Source of the DNA: a virus
Reading direction: 5' to 3' (one strand)
IMG/VR virus record: IMGVR_UViG_3300022074_000480
Span: 1-20,351 of that record
DNA length: 20,351 nt
The notes below the pieces were generated by a model, which was not told where the DNA came from, did no database searches, and worked only from the letters and a program-made list of their open reading frames with translations. Within the stretch, counting starts at the first letter, position 1, and every line of letters starts with the position of its first letter. A program made the translations under genes and the position numbers. Shown piece by piece: positions 21-8,474 of this stretch.

Positions 21-2228
21 ATGAATTACGCAGACGGCTTTAAATCTATCCTTGAAGCTGCGAAAGACCGGAGAGGCGATTCATCTACAGACACGATGAT
101 CGTTGCTTCACATCTCTCGCAGATGCGGACATTTATCCTCCGTCGTGGCATTGAGTTTTACTGTGAGCAAGATAGCTACGGTAAGCGTAAAGAGTTTCTG
201 CAGAAGATATATGACGACAACATGCTGGAGATGAAGCTTGACAGTATCATCGACCACTTCCTGTGTGACGGCCAAGGTCTGTTCTACTTCCGTCCTACAG
301 GTGATACCTATCAACTGCTGTATTTCCCAAAGGATCGATACCGTGTGTATCGGGACCAGATGGGCAACATCGAGAACTGTGTTCTGATCTACAGCTTCGG
401 TGTCAAAGGTAAAGATCAAATGGCTGGCATGTATGCACAGCCAGGTATGCGTGGCGGTAAGAAAAAGTATATCCGCTTGAGCGTATTTAAAGATCGGATT
501 GAGCAGACCATCTCTGATGAGAAGATCAACTTTGAAGATGAGAATCCGTTGGGTGGCCAACGTGCCATGGGGCAGACAGAAACCCTGACCAACTCACTCA
601 GCTTCATTCCTGCTGTTGAGGTCTTCAACCACCTCGACTGCACAGGTGAAGCAACTGGACGTGGTGAGTTTGATTGGCTGAGCCATCAGATCCTGTATCA
701 CGATGAGCTAGTGCGTAACGTCCGTAAGAACATGAAGTTCTTCGGCAACCCCACACTGCTGTCCTCACGACCTAAGCACGACATTGTTGAGTCTGGTGAA
801 GGTGAGCAAGGCATCCGCCCCACCATTAGTTCACAGGCAGGCTTCCGCCCAATGCAAAGTGCGGGTTCACCTTTTGGTGCTCCGTCTCCTATCGATGGTC
901 AGATCAAAGTTCCCCGTGTTATTGCAAACCTGGAGCCTACTGATCGTGTCAACTACCTGACGCCTGATGCTGTTTCTGGTGACCAGAACTTGTACGTCAA
1001 ACAATACCGTTCTGAGATCCGTCTTGCACTTGGCGGGGTTGATGACATTGACATCAATACTGCAGCTACTGCATACGAAATCAAGACGCTTTACGGTCGT
1101 GTTGCTGCAACAGCTGAGAAAAAGGCTAAAGCAATGTTCGAGTTTGGCCTCTGCAAGCTCCTGGCCATGATGATTCAGCATGAGGAATTCTTGTTTGAAG
1201 AATCCTTTGCAAGTGCCATGGGTCTTGAGAAGCCCCCAGTACCACTGCCTGAAGTCTTCCCCGATACAGAAACATACGAACAAGCATTAGCCAAATACAA
1301 CAAGGCGCAGCAAGACTTCCTGTCAAATAGGGACGAAATGTTCCGTGCTAAACTTGAGGCAGGTGAAATACCTCCAGGAGTTACTGGTCTTATTCCTGAC
1401 GGCAGCACAAAAGTTAGCTGGCGTTGGACCGGGCAAGTATTTGAAGACGATTCCAACGATATTCTTCAAAACAGTATTGTTGTTCGTAACCTTCAAGAAC
1501 TTGGTGTTGATTCTATTGAAGCACTGAAGTTCCTCTTCCCTGGCAAAACGGATGAAGAGCGAGCAGCAATGCTTTCTGGATATCCGTTCAGGATGGTTCA
1601 GCAAACTCAACAGTCTTTGAACCAATTTATTGGTCTCCTCGGCAATCTTTATCAGTTGCCACACCCACAGACGCCCAACATGCCTCTTGCGTCTGACCCC
1701 AACCTGGATATCACAGGTTTCTTATATCGATCACTTGAATTTTTACGTAAGGAGTTAAGTTACAGTGGAACCTACAAGTCAAGCGGCACCGACAACCGCC
1801 CAAGTAAGCTCTCCGACGCCGATCGCCTCCGTGCCCAGTTCGGTGAGCAGCCAAGAGATGAGCGCTCCGTCTCAATACCAGGCATCTCAACCCCAGGCTC
1901 CGGCGGTTTACCAGACCTCGACGGCTCCGGCTCCGGCGGGGAATCCATGGCAGGAAGCGTTCCAGGCTCTCAGCGCAAGTCTGAATACGCCCAGCCAATC
2001 CCTGGCCCAGGTACCGTCCTCGGCTTACCAGACTCCGACACCTCAGGTTCCTTCCCAGGTGTCATGGGCTTCAACTCAGGCACAGCCGCAAGCCCAGTAT
2101 TCGGAAGCCCAGACATATCAGCCCCAAGCTTCAACCCAGGCGTTTTCGGCCCAGGACGTTCAGAGTTTATTGAGCCAGCAGGCCGCCCAACTCCAAAGCG
2201 CTCCGGTTCAAAGCGCACCCGCAAGTGA
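21..2228 (+). CDS. Portal-like protein with a long Gly/Ser/Pro tail
   Basis: This 735-aa protein is probably the portal, the ring at the capsid vertex through which DNA is packaged. The call rests on its size, its place ahead of a scaffold candidate and the capsid gene, and an alpha/beta body with a long helical segment (about residues 340-400, around LALGGVDDIDI and AATAYEIKTLYGR) that reads like a portal wing/stem. I see no diagnostic portal motif, so this is inference. From about residue 582 the protein changes to a Gly/Ser/Pro-rich, probably disordered tail ending in a basic stretch (KRSGSKRTRK). That tail is encoded by the same DNA as the first 155 codons of the next gene in another frame. 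The ATG at 21 is the only sensible start in view; the upstream AAAGGA is rather far away. Confidence 0.6.
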   Translation: MNYADGFKSILEAAKDRRGDSSTDTMIVASHLSQMRTFILRRGIEFYCEQDSYGKRKEFLQKIYDDNMLEMKLDSIIDHFLCDGQGLFYFRPTGDTYQLLYFPKDRYRVYRDQMGNIENCVLIYSFGVKGKDQMAGMYAQPGMRGGKKKYIRLSVFKDRIEQTISDEKINFEDENPLGGQRAMGQTETLTNSLSFIPAVEVFNHLDCTGEATGRGEFDWLSHQILYHDELVRNVRKNMKFFGNPTLLSSRPKHDIVESGEGEQGIRPTISSQAGFRPMQSAGSPFGAPSPIDGQIKVPRVIANLEPTDRVNYLTPDAVSGDQNLYVKQYRSEIRLALGGVDDIDINTAATAYEIKTLYGRVAATAEKKAKAMFEFGLCKLLAMMIQHEEFLFEESFASAMGLEKPPVPLPEVFPDTETYEQALAKYNKAQQDFLSNRDEMFRAKLEAGEIPPGVTGLIPDGSTKVSWRWTGQVFEDDSNDILQNSIVVRNLQELGVDSIEALKFLFPGKTDEERAAMLSGYPFRMVQQTQQSLNQFIGLLGNLYQLPHPQTPNMPLASDPNLDITGFLYRSLEFLRKELSYSGTYKSSGTDNRPSKLSDADRLRAQFGEQPRDERSVSIPGISTPGSGGLPDLDGSGSGGESMAGSVPGSQRKSEYAQPIPGPGTVLGLPDSDTSGSFPGVMGFNSGTAASPVFGSPDISAPSFNPGVFGPGRSEFIEPAGRPTPKRSGSKRTRK
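1749..1754 (+). promoter_or_regulatory. Shine-Dalgarno AAGGAG for the overlapping gene at 1765
   Basis: AAGGAG lies 10 nt before a GTG, inside the portal-like reading frame. It decides the start of the overlapping gene, since a perfect ribosome binding site with correct spacing is unlikely at a random GTG. It shares the GGAGTTA-N6/7-start layout with the sites before the genes at 6231 and 7395. Confidence 0.75.
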
Positions 2229-2763
2229 TTCCTACCTGAGTCAGATCTCTGACACCAGCCTGGAAGTCCTTGAGCACTTCGGTGCTGAAGCTCCTGCGCT
2301 GCTGAACAACTACGCATGTGCCGTGGAAGATGCCCTGATCGAACAGGTCAAAACCACCCAGGCCATGAACGTGATGCTGAACGCTGCTGGTGAAGAGCGT
2401 GCTGCTATGAACGTCATGCTGACTGATCCCGACATTCTTGCTGACTACGTCAACGAGTTCTTCGGTGCTGAAGGTCCTTACCCGACTGAGACTCCTCAGG
2501 AAGCTATGGAGCGTGAGCAGATCGAAGCTCGTGAACAGTTTGAATCCGAGATCGAAGCTCAAGAGCAGCGTCAAGTTCCTCAGAACTTCCAGCGCCCTCA
2601 GATGGAAATGCCTACCCCTGGCCAACAGTCTTCTAACGAAGCAGCCAACTTCTGGGGCAACTTCTCTGAAATGATGGATAACAACCCTGAGAACGCTTGG
2701 CAGTATCTGTCTGGTGCAGCCCCCGCTGCTTTCCAGCAGAAGATGATGATCCAAGACGTGTGA
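1765..2763 (+). CDS. Gln/Pro-rich candidate scaffolding protein, overlapping the portal-like gene
   Basis: This 332-aa protein starts at a GTG with a strong Shine-Dalgarno site and runs in the +1 frame relative to the portal-like gene for 464 nt before becoming the only frame. Residues 1-155 are low-complexity Gln/Pro/Ser/Ala, probably disordered. Residues about 160-332 are acidic and helical, with a Glu/Gln-rich coiled-coil-like stretch near residues 245-275 and a C-terminal part containing NFWGNFSEMMDNN. An acidic, helical, low-complexity protein between portal and capsid genes fits a capsid scaffold or assembly protein. No scaffold family signature is recognised, so function comes from context only. 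It could instead be an internal virion protein. The frame is well supported because the last 178 codons are unambiguous. Confidence 0.75.
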   Translation: MEPTSQAAPTTAQVSSPTPIASVPSSVSSQEMSAPSQYQASQPQAPAVYQTSTAPAPAGNPWQEAFQALSASLNTPSQSLAQVPSSAYQTPTPQVPSQVSWASTQAQPQAQYSEAQTYQPQASTQAFSAQDVQSLLSQQAAQLQSAPVQSAPASDSYLSQISDTSLEVLEHFGAEAPALLNNYACAVEDALIEQVKTTQAMNVMLNAAGEERAAMNVMLTDPDILADYVNEFFGAEGPYPTETPQEAMEREQIEAREQFESEIEAQEQRQVPQNFQRPQMEMPTPGQQSSNEAANFWGNFSEMMDNNPENAWQYLSGAAPAAFQQKMMIQDV

Positions 2764-3691: not shown

Positions 3692-4627
3692 ATGGCACAA
3701 AAAGGTACAGGCGATTCCGTCAGAGCTTATCTGCGGGATATTGGACGCATTCCTCTTCTTGAGCACGACGAAGAAATTCTTCTAGGTCGTAAAGTTCAAC
3801 GAATGATGGAACTGAACGAGATGAAGAAAGAGCTAGAGCTTAACGATCAATCTCTTGCTGATGTACTGGATGTGCCATTAAAGCAAATCAAACGAGAGTT
3901 CCGTGATGGCGAAAGAGCTAAAGACAAGATGGTTACTGCAAACCTGCGGCTCGTGGTTAGTGTTGCAAAAAAATACACTAAGCGCAATATGGAACTACTC
4001 GACATTATCCAAGAGGGAACCATCGGGCTCGTCCGTGGTGTTGAAAAGTTCGATCCTGGCCGGGGGTATAAGTTTAGTACTTATGCTTATTGGTGGATCC
4101 GTCAGGGTATTACGAGAGCTATCGCCGAGAAGTCACGTGCAATTAGACTCCCCATCCACGTTACTGAGAATCTCAACAGACTTAAGAAAGCACAGCGAGA
4201 ACTATCACAATTGAACGGTCGTATGCCCAACGTGGCAGAGCTGGCTGAAGAGCTTGGTCTTACACAAGATGACGTTAAAGATCTGATGTGTAAGGCACGT
4301 CAGCCAACGTCACTTGAAATCAAGATCGGAGAAAACCGTGACACTGCACTGGTGGACCTGCTTGAAGATGACACTCAAATCCCTGAGGAGATTCTTGAAG
4401 CAATGTGCATCAAAGAAGATATCCGCAATCTGATTGGCGATCTTCCTGAGATGCAAGCAAGCGTAATCTCCATGCGTTACGGCATTGGCCATGAAATGCT
4501 TGAACCAATGTCTATGACAGCAATTGGTCAAGTACTAAACATGTCACGTGATCGTGTTCGTACTCTTGAGCAAAAAGCTCTGAAGGCTTTACGTGAGCAC
4601 TCTGCGAAGATCAACGAATATCTCTAA
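3692..4627 (+). CDS. Sigma-70 family RNA polymerase sigma factor, cyanobacterial group-2 type
   Basis: This 311-aa protein directs host RNA polymerase to promoters. It shows the typical cyanobacterial start of region 1.2 (DSVRAYLRDIGRIPLL, residues 8-23). Region 2 spans about residues 76-156, with NLRLVVSVAKKY, the core-binding DIIQEGTIGLVRGVEKFD, and the -10 recognition part FSTYAYWWIRQ. Region 3 follows, then region 4 near the C-terminus with a helix-turn-helix (IGQVLNMSRDRVRTLEQKALKAL). The acidic region 1.1 is absent, and length matches group-2 sigmas such as SigB/SigD. It is a full sigma-70 with region 4, unlike the short T4 gp55-type late sigma. Host origin is likely. Lying among virion genes, it probably acts on phage transcription, or reshapes host stress transcription. 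Confidence 0.95.
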   Translation: MAQKGTGDSVRAYLRDIGRIPLLEHDEEILLGRKVQRMMELNEMKKELELNDQSLADVLDVPLKQIKREFRDGERAKDKMVTANLRLVVSVAKKYTKRNMELLDIIQEGTIGLVRGVEKFDPGRGYKFSTYAYWWIRQGITRAIAEKSRAIRLPIHVTENLNRLKKAQRELSQLNGRMPNVAELAEELGLTQDDVKDLMCKARQPTSLEIKIGENRDTALVDLLEDDTQIPEEILEAMCIKEDIRNLIGDLPEMQASVISMRYGIGHEMLEPMSMTAIGQVLNMSRDRVRTLEQKALKALREHSAKINEYL

Positions 4628-5743: not shown

Positions 5744-5760
5744 ACAATATAACTATTGTA
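5744..5760 (-). promoter_or_regulatory. Minus-strand TACAAT box within a palindrome
   Basis: On the minus strand TACAATAG (5760-5753) ends with the TAG stop codon of the HNH gene, so promoter and stop share bases. ACAATA (5744-5749) and TATTGT (5754-5759) form an inverted repeat with a TAAC centre. The arrangement resembles the palindrome around the box at 4628. Confidence 0.45.
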
Positions 5761-6115
5761 AGTGATTTCTAGTAGACCATTTCAGATTATCTGCTGAACA
5801 GTTACTACGATCACCATCCTTGTGCGTTACACCTGAGCAGCCTTTACTACGGCCATAAGGTGTAGGCGAAGGTCCAAGGAATGCAAGGGCAACTAGTTTA
5901 TGAACATATACTGAGACTACAGACTTACGACCAATTCTCTGTGTGAGGTTAACCGACAGATATCCTTTCTTGTTTACTTTTGGTCTGAGGATACGTTCGA
6001 TCGAACCCTTGGTACTTTTTACTTGACCAAGCTTATTTACGTAGTATTCGATGCAGCATTCATATCCAGGAAGACTGTGAATCGGCTTCCATTCTCCGCA
6101 ATCAATGAATTCCAT
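5753..6115 (-). CDS. HNH homing endonuclease with NUMOD4-type N-terminus
   Basis: This 120-aa protein is a free-standing site-specific endonuclease that spreads its own gene. The N-terminal part (EWKPIHSLPGYE, residues 8-19, then VNKLGQVKS) matches the NUMOD4 DNA-contact motif. A conserved middle (ILRPKVNKKGYLSVNL) and VHKLVALAF (residues 71-79) follow. The C-terminal HNH core has THKDGDRSN (97-105) and DNLKWST (109-115), with catalytic/metal candidates H98 and N105 and structural N110. It is short but all parts are present, so it may be active. It lies opposite in direction to, and 115 nt from, the capsid gene, a typical place for such intruders. Confidence 0.9.
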   Translation of the reverse strand: MEFIDCGEWKPIHSLPGYECCIEYYVNKLGQVKSTKGSIERILRPKVNKKGYLSVNLTQRIGRKSVVSVYVHKLVALAFLGPSPTPYGRSKGCSGVTHKDGDRSNCSADNLKWSTRNHLQ

Positions 6116-6230: not shown

Positions 6231-7379
6231 ATGTGGATTGATAATGATTTTCCGAAGCTTCTTGGTGCTGAGCTTTATCGTCCCCACCCCGCATACATCA
6301 TTGAGATGGCTGTGGAGCCTGTGGTGGTCCACGACTTCAGCAAGCAACCCGGTCAGACTGTTCAGCTCGACCGTTATCGCTTCTGGGGCAAGCCTGGTAC
6401 TAAGGAGTCCCGTGAGCGTACTGCTGACCAAACTCTTGGCACCGCATCTGCACGCAACATTGTGAAGGACAAGGTGCTGGTTACTCTGCGTGAGTACACC
6501 GGACCTGCCGACACCCGTGACAGTGCACAGCCTTCTACCTTCAAGGTTGCACGTGAAACTCTGATCACTGCCCAGCGTCTTCTGCTGGACACCGGCAACC
6601 TCAACGTCTTCCACCAGTCCATCGGTTCACTGACACTGCTCGACGACTACCGTCGTTGGCGTGACCGGGTGTTCGCTAACGAACTCCTCAAAGCCGAAGC
6701 CAACGGTGCTGCTAACAAGGATCAAGGTGGTTACTACCTGCCTGGTTCCAAGACCAAAGGCGGTTCCGGCGGAACCTTGGGTGTGACCTACGGCGCTGGC
6801 GAATCTGCCAAGTTCGATGTCACCACCGACCTGCTGGAAGTTGTTAAGGACATGCGTAAGCGCAACGTCCCTACCTTCGCTGACGGTTACTACCGTTGCA
6901 TCGTCGATCCCACCGCAATGATGCACCTGCGTCAGAACAGCGACTTCCGTGAGATCGCACGTTATCCCGGCCAAGGCATGATCAACCCGATGCAGCCTAA
7001 CGCCGCCCCTAACGCCAACTTCTACCAAGGAATGGGACCTGCCTACGGTCAGGCTGGTTTCGTGGCTGGACAACCTGTCATGCCGACTGGTTTCCTGTTT
7101 GAAGGCGTCCGCTGGTTCGAGAGCACCAACCTCCCCGAGACCACCTACAACCTCGTTGTTACCGATAACAACAGCTCTGCTGCTGACTACACCGCCAGCC
7201 AGCTGATCTTCTTCGGTCCTCAGGCTGTCGGCGTGGGTATTGGTGGAAACAATGCTCAGATCCTGCTGAACAACAACGACGACTTCAGCCGCTTCATCAT
7301 CATGATCTGGAGCCTCTTCGCTGGTTTTGAAGTTCTGAACAAGGACTTCATCACGGTTGGTTACTCATTCGTTTATTGA
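6231..7379 (+). CDS. Major capsid protein, HK97-fold, N4-gp56-like
   Basis: This 382-aa protein most likely forms the head shell. An N-terminal arm (DFPKLLGAELYR) is followed by a loop around residues 40-55 (VQLDRYRFWGKPG), a long helical spine (about 105-150) and a C-terminal region with GFLFEGVRWFESTNLP, FFGPQAVGVGIGGN and DDFSRFIIMIWSLFAGFEVLN. Those C-terminal elements recall the N4-gp56 family of HK97-fold capsid proteins, recognised from memory. There is no prohead protease region at the N-terminus. The gene has a strong Shine-Dalgarno site and many C-ending codons, unlike most neighbours, which suits very high expression. It is followed closely by the decoration candidate. Confidence 0.75.
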   Translation: MWIDNDFPKLLGAELYRPHPAYIIEMAVEPVVVHDFSKQPGQTVQLDRYRFWGKPGTKESRERTADQTLGTASARNIVKDKVLVTLREYTGPADTRDSAQPSTFKVARETLITAQRLLLDTGNLNVFHQSIGSLTLLDDYRRWRDRVFANELLKAEANGAANKDQGGYYLPGSKTKGGSGGTLGVTYGAGESAKFDVTTDLLEVVKDMRKRNVPTFADGYYRCIVDPTAMMHLRQNSDFREIARYPGQGMINPMQPNAAPNANFYQGMGPAYGQAGFVAGQPVMPTGFLFEGVRWFESTNLPETTYNLVVTDNNSSAADYTASQLIFFGPQAVGVGIGGNNAQILLNNNDDFSRFIIMIWSLFAGFEVLNKDFITVGYSFVY

Positions 7380-7975: not shown

Positions 7976-8002
7976 AAGGCTCTCTTCGGAGGGCCTTTTT
8001 TT
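7976..8002 (+). terminator. Rho-independent terminator after the capsid pair
   Basis: AAGGCTCTC (7976-7984) pairs with GAGGGCCTT (7989-7997) with one G-U pair, around a TTCG loop, and runs into a seven-T tract ending at 8002. This is a textbook intrinsic terminator. It shares the UUCG loop with the hairpin at 2771. Confidence 0.92.
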
Positions 8003-8008
8003 GTGCCT

Positions 8009-8014
8009 TATAAT
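8009..8014 (+). promoter_or_regulatory. TATAAT box directly after the terminator
   Basis: A perfect TATAAT begins 7 nt after the terminator T-tract and ends 25 nt before the ATG at 8040. Transcription from it would start near 8020, so the in-frame starts at 8001 and 8016 would lie upstream of the RNA start. Confidence 0.55.
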
Positions 8015-8039
8015 TATGAAAGAAGATTCAAATACCCTA

Positions 8040-8474
8040 ATGGCTAGCAATCTATTCCAGGATGATAATACTGGCAAACTCGTAGAGTTCATCAATAAGA
8101 TTGATGGTGAGTATGCAATGGTGCGTGACTCTGGTGGCGCTATCAGTTATGTGAACCTGAGTTCACTTACTCCTTATGACAAAGACAAAGGACGTCTCGC
8201 CAAAGTTGAAGCCCCTCAAGTGCAGCCTGCACCAGAAGAGCAAGCACCTGCAACCGTGGTTCCCCTTGAAGACACACGTTTGAACCTGAACACTGCTCCC
8301 CCGGAAGTTATTTCCAAGCGTCTGCCTGGTGTTGGCTATGCAACTGCCAAGCGTATTGTTGAGCTGCGTATGTCACTGTCTGGTGAGCGTTTCTCTAACT
8401 TGAAGCAGCTTGAGAATATTCCCCGTGTTAACTGGGAACAACTTATCAAAGATGATCTTATCTTTATCGCTTGA
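8040..8474 (+). CDS. Helix-hairpin-helix (ComEA-like) protein
   Basis: This 145-aa protein ends in a helix-hairpin-helix domain, about residues 80-145: LNLNTAPPEVISKRLPGVGY, then ATAKRIVELR and NLKQLENIPRVNWEQL. The pattern matches ComEA/PsbU-type HhH repeats, which bind DNA without sequence preference or serve as protein folds. The N-terminal 50 residues form a small beta region (GKLVEFINKIDGEYAMVRDS), joined by a Pro/Glu/Gln-rich linker. Start choice: ATG 8040 is preferred over 8016 and over TTG 8001, because the TATAAT box at 8009 would put those outside the transcript and 8001 lies in the terminator. Role is unknown; binding packaged DNA or the connector is possible. Confidence 0.8.
   Translation: MASNLFQDDNTGKLVEFINKIDGEYAMVRDSGGAISYVNLSSLTPYDKDKGRLAKVEAPQVQPAPEEQAPATVVPLEDTRLNLNTAPPEVISKRLPGVGYATAKRIVELRMSLSGERFSNLKQLENIPRVNWEQLIKDDLIFIA

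Follow-up and report, generated by a model that had tools for sequence, protein, structure and literature searches.

At the start of a viral sequence from IMG/VR (record IMGVR_UViG_3300022074_000480, positions 1 to 20,351; the whole stretch of 20,351 nt that was analysed is called the window below), two long reading frames are open over the same DNA. This raises the question of whether a tailed phage makes two head proteins from one stretch of sequence. The original prediction, made from the letters alone, held that a portal gene runs on through the beginning of a second gene, a scaffold candidate, and that both frames are real.

Layout of the locus and identity of the portal

The portal protein gene (21–2228, plus strand) encodes 735 amino acids, of which approximately residues 1–580 form a structured core and residues 582–735 a disordered tail of Gly, Ser and Pro. 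The putative scaffolding protein gene (1765–2763, plus strand) begins with GTG and encodes 332 amino acids in the +1 frame relative to the portal. Both genes use the 464 nt at 1765–2228 of this strand, which specify portal residues 582–735 and residues 1–154 of the second protein. A Shine-Dalgarno sequence, TAAGGAG (1748–1754), is embedded in Lys-Glu codons of the portal on the same strand, placing AAGGAG (1749–1754) 10 nt 5' of the GTG. An in-frame TAA (1756–1758, plus strand), three codons 5' of the start, keeps the second frame apart from upstream reading. The two open frames, their coordinates, the GTG and the AAGGAG are all present as first described.

The DNA of the overlap is GC-richer and of low complexity; the low complexity had been attributed to CCAGGCTCC-like units. 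This part of the prediction was not borne out: the window contains five matches with at most one mismatch, three of them inside the overlap, versus 3.7 expected by chance. Tandem Repeats Finder detected no real tandem array in this DNA, leaving a repeat origin unsupported. The low complexity reflects biased composition, with one frame rich in Gly/Ser/Pro and the other in Ala/Gln/Ser/Pro, and not a repeat array.

The product of the first gene belongs to phrog_20475 (head and packaging; E 2e-176). Its sole portal relative in the phage collection is that of Synechococcus phage S-EIV1, with 47.7% identity, and a sequence-profile search of the PDB with the portal returned no match. When its AlphaFold model was compared with the PDB using Foldseek, all 28 matches at E<=0.001 were portals, with that of T7 in first place, albeit from a model of modest confidence (pLDDT 52, pTM 0.49). 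The genomic position agrees with the fold. In S-EIV1 the gene order is TerL, three small genes and portal, and at a locus of a third clade (L173) TerL lies immediately 5' of the portal. Both features expected of a tailed-phage portal, the fold and a place in the head module near the terminase large subunit, are therefore found, and together they strongly identify the first gene as the portal. The terminase large subunit itself varies in size: in S-EIV1 it has 846 amino acids (L002 1520–4060) and contains a match to an intein splicing domain (Pfam, E 1e-11), and the third-clade enzyme in L173 has 510.

In the AlphaFold model, the part of the portal encoded by the overlap (residues 582–735) lies beyond the conserved core and is mostly disordered. 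Residues P661, P663 and G664 are nevertheless invariant across 64 portals. The tail closes with a basic segment, RPTPKRSGSKRTRK (2184–2225, plus strand), and the net charge of the last 20 residues averages +6.6 in marine, +6.5 in freshwater and +8.75 in third-clade portals. A Gly/Ser/Pro tail with a basic end had been predicted for the window and is confirmed, the basic end being retained in nearly all loci. The portals of one marine subclade (L039, L040 and L049) stop early and do not carry the basic C-terminal end found elsewhere.

Conservation and selection in the two frames

Relatives were sought by scans seeded with the window, with S-EIV1 and with a third-clade portal, and the 80 best matches per search were retained. 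This yielded 238 complete loci, comprising 80 marine, 80 freshwater and 78 third-clade loci, whose portals are 44–51% identical between clades. The overlap is kept in the same frame and at the same place in every one of these loci (238/238, best 80 of each search), with lengths of 443–533 nt in the marine, 551–638 nt in the freshwater and 455–521 nt in the third clade. The overlap is ancient. No overlap-free relative was found by the scans seeded in the three clades or among GTDB genomes. A stop in the portal frame near the start of the overlap, named at the outset as the observation that would speak against dual coding, occurs in none of the relatives examined.

The start signals are conserved as well. 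The second gene begins with GTG in the marine clade; freshwater loci use an ATG located one codon further 5', and 75 of the 78 third-clade loci also start with ATG. AAGGAG precedes it in 80/80 marine and 80/80 freshwater loci and is degenerate in the third clade. There the internal start (e.g., L173 6709) has no good Shine-Dalgarno sequence and the frame is equally constrained; reinitiation or coupling may take the place of the Shine-Dalgarno sequence. In 79/80 marine loci, the in-frame stop precedes the start by three codons; the distance is two codons in 80/80 freshwater and 68/78 third-clade loci.

Two irregularities were noted among the sequences collected. The second ORF of L066 has 253 codons, compared with 343 in its close relative L067, which is a probable assembly frameshift. 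Furthermore, contigs of these phages (L163–L171), probably binned in error, occur in GTDB genomes labelled as Blastopirellula, Rhodobacteraceae, Crocinitomicaceae, Euryarchaeota and others.

Selection was analysed in sister pairs of less than 25% divergence, each sequence being used once (25 marine, 30 freshwater and 27 third-clade pairs), and each possible change was classed by its effect in both frames. In the marine portal, the rates of change at codon positions 1, 2 and 3 shift from.060/.030/.273 outside the overlap to.114/.048/.090 inside, and the shift is repeated in the freshwater and third clades. The third position is held inside the overlap because it is the second position of the scaffold frame; the first position rises because it is the scaffold third position, and is nonetheless much lower than at an unconstrained site. 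In the scaffold frame the pattern is mirrored, its third-position rate being.239 downstream and.111 inside the overlap.

Expressed as simple pairwise counts without saturation correction, dNN/dSN of the portal within the overlap is 0.49 (0.33–0.62) in the marine, 0.59 (0.49–0.71) in the freshwater and 0.48 (0.40–0.56) in the third clade. The corresponding uncorrected dNN/dNS of the scaffold frame is 0.37 (0.27–0.45), 0.34 (0.29–0.39) and 0.37 (0.29–0.43). As a control, the portal body was read in a fictitious +1 frame, which gave 0.92, 0.85 and 0.93 in the same order. In the reciprocal control, based on the scaffold-frame alignment, a fictitious continuation of the portal frame past the overlap reached 1.56 (1.37–1.85) versus 0.50 inside. 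Changes that create a stop in the scaffold frame amount to 0.016 per site inside the overlap versus 0.080 in the portal body. Changes that are free in both frames proceed at about the normal rate (dSS 0.30–0.33), so the overlap is not simply slow-evolving. With random synonymous codons, the chance that the +1 frame would stay open given the residues of the portal tail is 0.0003–0.07 per locus, and the reverse chance, that of the portal frame given the scaffold residues, is 0–0.002 per locus.

Open frames are thus conserved, and the comparison of synonymous and nonsynonymous rates that had been proposed as a check reveals purifying selection on both of them in each of the three clades. These findings strongly support the predicted dual coding. 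Very probably, the 464 nt genuinely encode both proteins, and a second head gene, most likely that of the scaffold, is started internally.

The portal ratio is not uniform along the overlap. In the first two thirds it is 0.40–0.53 in all clades; in the 3' third it is 0.85 (0.53–1.14) in the marine and 0.89 (0.66–1.17) in the freshwater clade, and 0.54 in the third clade. Constraint on the portal frame in this last third is consequently weak in two clades. A ratio near 1 in this part, as well as the predicted disorder of the tail, would fit a portal tail that is unselected read-through without a role, with the scaffold frame as the only functional one. This is very unlikely, given the low ratio in the first two thirds compared with 1.56 for the fictitious frame, the three invariant residues and the widely retained basic end.

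Programmed frameshifting might instead join the two ORFs into a portal–scaffold fusion with no separate initiation. The geometry of a long overlap in the +1 frame would allow it, and the weak Shine-Dalgarno sequence of the third clade would be in keeping with it. Such a fusion is difficult to reconcile with the conserved start codon, which sits where the open frame begins, and with the in-frame stop that precedes it by two or three codons in 229/238 loci (best 80 matches per search); it is highly improbable.

The GenBank annotation of S-EIV1 implies yet another arrangement, in which the portal frame alone codes in the overlap and the second protein begins past the portal stop. S-EIV1 (KJ410740) is a cultured phage that resembles the window in having a homologous portal (AHV82224.1) and a likewise homologous overlapping ORF in the same +1 frame; its overlap measures 551 nt, and the second gene starts with an ATG preceded by AAGGAG. 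The record differs in that the second gene (AHV82225.1) is given as 133 amino acids from after the portal stop, whereas the conserved ORF has 325, so that about 190 residues of the second protein are dropped. The annotated start can hardly be correct: portal third-position changes fall three-fold in the overlap, the scaffold-frame ratio is 0.34–0.37 against a control of about 0.9, the start codon is conserved, as is the Shine-Dalgarno sequence in two clades, and an invariant NPW..AF motif lies within the overlap part. In a reference genome, the start of a structural gene is therefore misplaced by nearly 200 residues, an error that may recur with gene callers in which long overlaps are penalised. 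That the second frame is open merely through composition or chance, as the GC-richer, low-complexity DNA might suggest, is virtually excluded, being refuted by the selection tests, the reciprocal control and the conservation in three clades.

Relative age of the frames and nature of the second protein

Read in the portal frame, the overlap uses codons much as the other genes do; read in the scaffold frame, its codon usage is no closer to theirs than random. This holds for 164/164 loci under two nulls. Codon usage has been reviewed as an ancestry criterion for overlapping genes and has served to infer the ancestry of viral overprinted pairs (PMC8227390); by this criterion, the portal frame is ancestral. 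Since the portal third base is the scaffold second base, the test is biased, and the confidence placed in its outcome was lowered for this reason. On codon usage, it is fairly likely that the portal frame is the older and that the scaffold N-terminus arose by overprinting of the portal tail. Of the overprinting originally proposed, the dual coding thus stands firmly and its direction, scaffold over portal tail, with moderate support from these 164 loci. The reverse course, in which the scaffold N-terminus came first and the portal tail was laid over it once an earlier portal stop had been lost, would suit the stronger constraint on the scaffold frame today (0.34–0.37 vs 0.48–0.59). The codon usage of all 164 loci opposes it, and it is the less likely course.

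The second protein has no match in Pfam, PHROGs or PDB profiles. Its AlphaFold model predicts disorder at residues 12–57 and 76–127, a short helix at residues 61–73 (NPWQEAFQALSAS) and helices throughout residues 129–331. The disordered N-terminus that had been anticipated is thereby supported, and the model as a whole is mostly helical with disordered regions, as expected for a tailed-phage scaffold. Residues P61, W62, A65, F66 and L73 are invariant in 59 sequences and include the NPW..AF motif. In the window, this dual-coded stretch (1942–1983, plus strand) reads NPWQEAFQALSASL in the scaffold frame, corresponding to the predicted helix 61–73, over ESMAGSVPG in the portal frame.

In the viral structure library BFVD, the top match of the model is a protein of 133 residues, the length of the truncated S-EIV1 annotation, followed by a weak match named 'Scaffolding protein' (E 0.07, prob 0.12). 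No homology to known scaffolds, in sequence or fold, rose above noise in these searches. Scaffolding proteins diverge fast, so such homology is not a strict requirement. A disordered part combined with a helical part is usual for them.

The second gene lies directly 3' of the portal in all three clades, and between portal and capsid wherever the capsid was found (45 marine and 65 freshwater loci). The major capsid protein gene of the window (6231–7379, plus strand) matches phrog_1357 (major head protein, E 1.5e-18), and its product is 66% identical to that of S-EIV1. In the S-EIV1 record the capsid gene is also mis-annotated: the true ORF of 383 amino acids is at L002 8299–9450 (KJ410740.1 about 60859–62010), and in its place the record gives an ORF on the reverse strand and a fragment from the C-terminal end. 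At the third-clade locus L173, the second gene is followed by a small gene and then by an endolysin (lysis) gene, and no capsid gene was found near it in the stretch of this one locus; position is less telling there.

Gene position, a mostly disordered N-terminal half and a helical C-terminal half make a scaffold the best guess for the second protein, and probably the right one. With the dual coding left intact, the protein might also be another head component, such as a minor internal or ejection protein. The missing homology to any known scaffold and the lysis neighbourhood of the third-clade locus would be compatible with such a component. The conserved place directly after the portal in all clades, the place 5' of each capsid gene found in marine and freshwater loci, and the scaffold-like division into disordered and helical halves render it rather unlikely.

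Comparison with known systems and a possible role in assembly

Most known cases of long overlaps that code in two different frames, both demonstrably under selection, come from small viruses. The pairs of phiX174 and other viruses resemble the window in their out-of-frame dual coding with selection on both frames, but belong to small ssDNA or eukaryotic viruses, whereas the window comes from a tailed dsDNA phage of about 70–90 kb and its pair consists of portal and putative scaffold. A functional parallel may be seen in phage lambda, whose Nu3 scaffold is made from an internal start within the upstream head gene C, a protease gene, in the same frame. The window likewise has its probable scaffold starting inside an upstream head gene, and differs in using two frames instead of one and in having the portal as the upstream gene. 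As its second start lies in the +1 frame, it is not an in-frame internal start of the Nu3 type.

Lambda Nu3 acts with the portal B in an initiator complex (PMC3224144). For P22 and HK97, the accessible portions of two sources describe joint nucleation of the procapsid by scaffold and portal and mention no dual coding, unlike the window (PMC12005531, PMC10275583). No sequence relation was found between these scaffold–portal systems and the genes of the window. No report of an out-of-frame overlap of portal and scaffold was found in the literature searched, mostly papers available without subscription.

In the window, the overlap links two genes that are essential for the assembly of a tailed phage, those of the portal and of the probable scaffold, in a group of abundant, little-studied cyanobacterial viruses. 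In a marine survey, the genus-level group of S-EIV1 represented 3.3% of marine cyanophage abundance (PMC5332604). There is no obvious shortage of genome space, and the arrangement has survived to portal identities of 44–51%, which argues for a benefit other than compression. Candidate benefits are coupling of the two genes or reuse of disordered tails.

A possible sequence of events can be outlined. Some ribosomes would read the portal gene through to its basic C-terminal end, and others would use a second entry site within the portal message and produce the scaffold from the internal start in the +1 frame. The flexible scaffold N-terminus would have been overprinted on the equally flexible portal tail, double use being tolerable because both dual-coded segments are disordered. 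During procapsid assembly, the flexible arms might act as binding tails, the scaffold through its NPW helix and the portal through its basic end, and scaffold output would depend on the portal message; the amounts of the two proteins may be tied, as first proposed.

The portal body shows a further zone of reduced synonymous change immediately 5' of the overlap (1321–1764 in the window, plus strand). The ratio of observed to expected synonymous change is 0.38–0.76 from -444 to -12 relative to the second start in the marine clade and 0.07–0.51 from -276 to -1 in the freshwater clade. In the third clade, the raw third-position rate from about -360 to -1 is 0.12–0.23 vs 0.31. This zone of about 300–440 nt coincides with a very conserved segment of the portal. 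It is tempting, if doubtful, to regard overlap and zone as one unit, through which the portal message would set the amount of scaffold per portal and both arms would bind partners in one nucleation complex. If so, the ratio and the interface of both assembly partners would be written in the same DNA.

Several other explanations of the constrained zone were considered. A third hidden ORF was rejected, as a scan of the other five frames for stops revealed none that is conserved open across clades. RNA structure is not convincing, with changes on both sides in 5/71 pairs of the full alignment; windowed RNAalifold gave a signal in the freshwater clade only (SCI 0.77, z -4.3). Searches of the zone detected no promoter and no Rfam family.

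Further genes of the window deserve brief mention. An RNA polymerase sigma factor gene (3692–4627) is located 3' of the second gene and before that of the capsid; it is found downstream in 59 marine loci and was not found in freshwater or third-clade loci. Upstream of the capsid gene, an ORF on the minus strand (5753–6115) resembles, by eye, a NUMOD4/HNH homing endonuclease. A 157-residue ORF (8001–8474) contains a helix-hairpin-helix-like stretch, LNLNTAPPEVISKRLPGVGYATAKRIVELR, which by eye appears ComEA-like.
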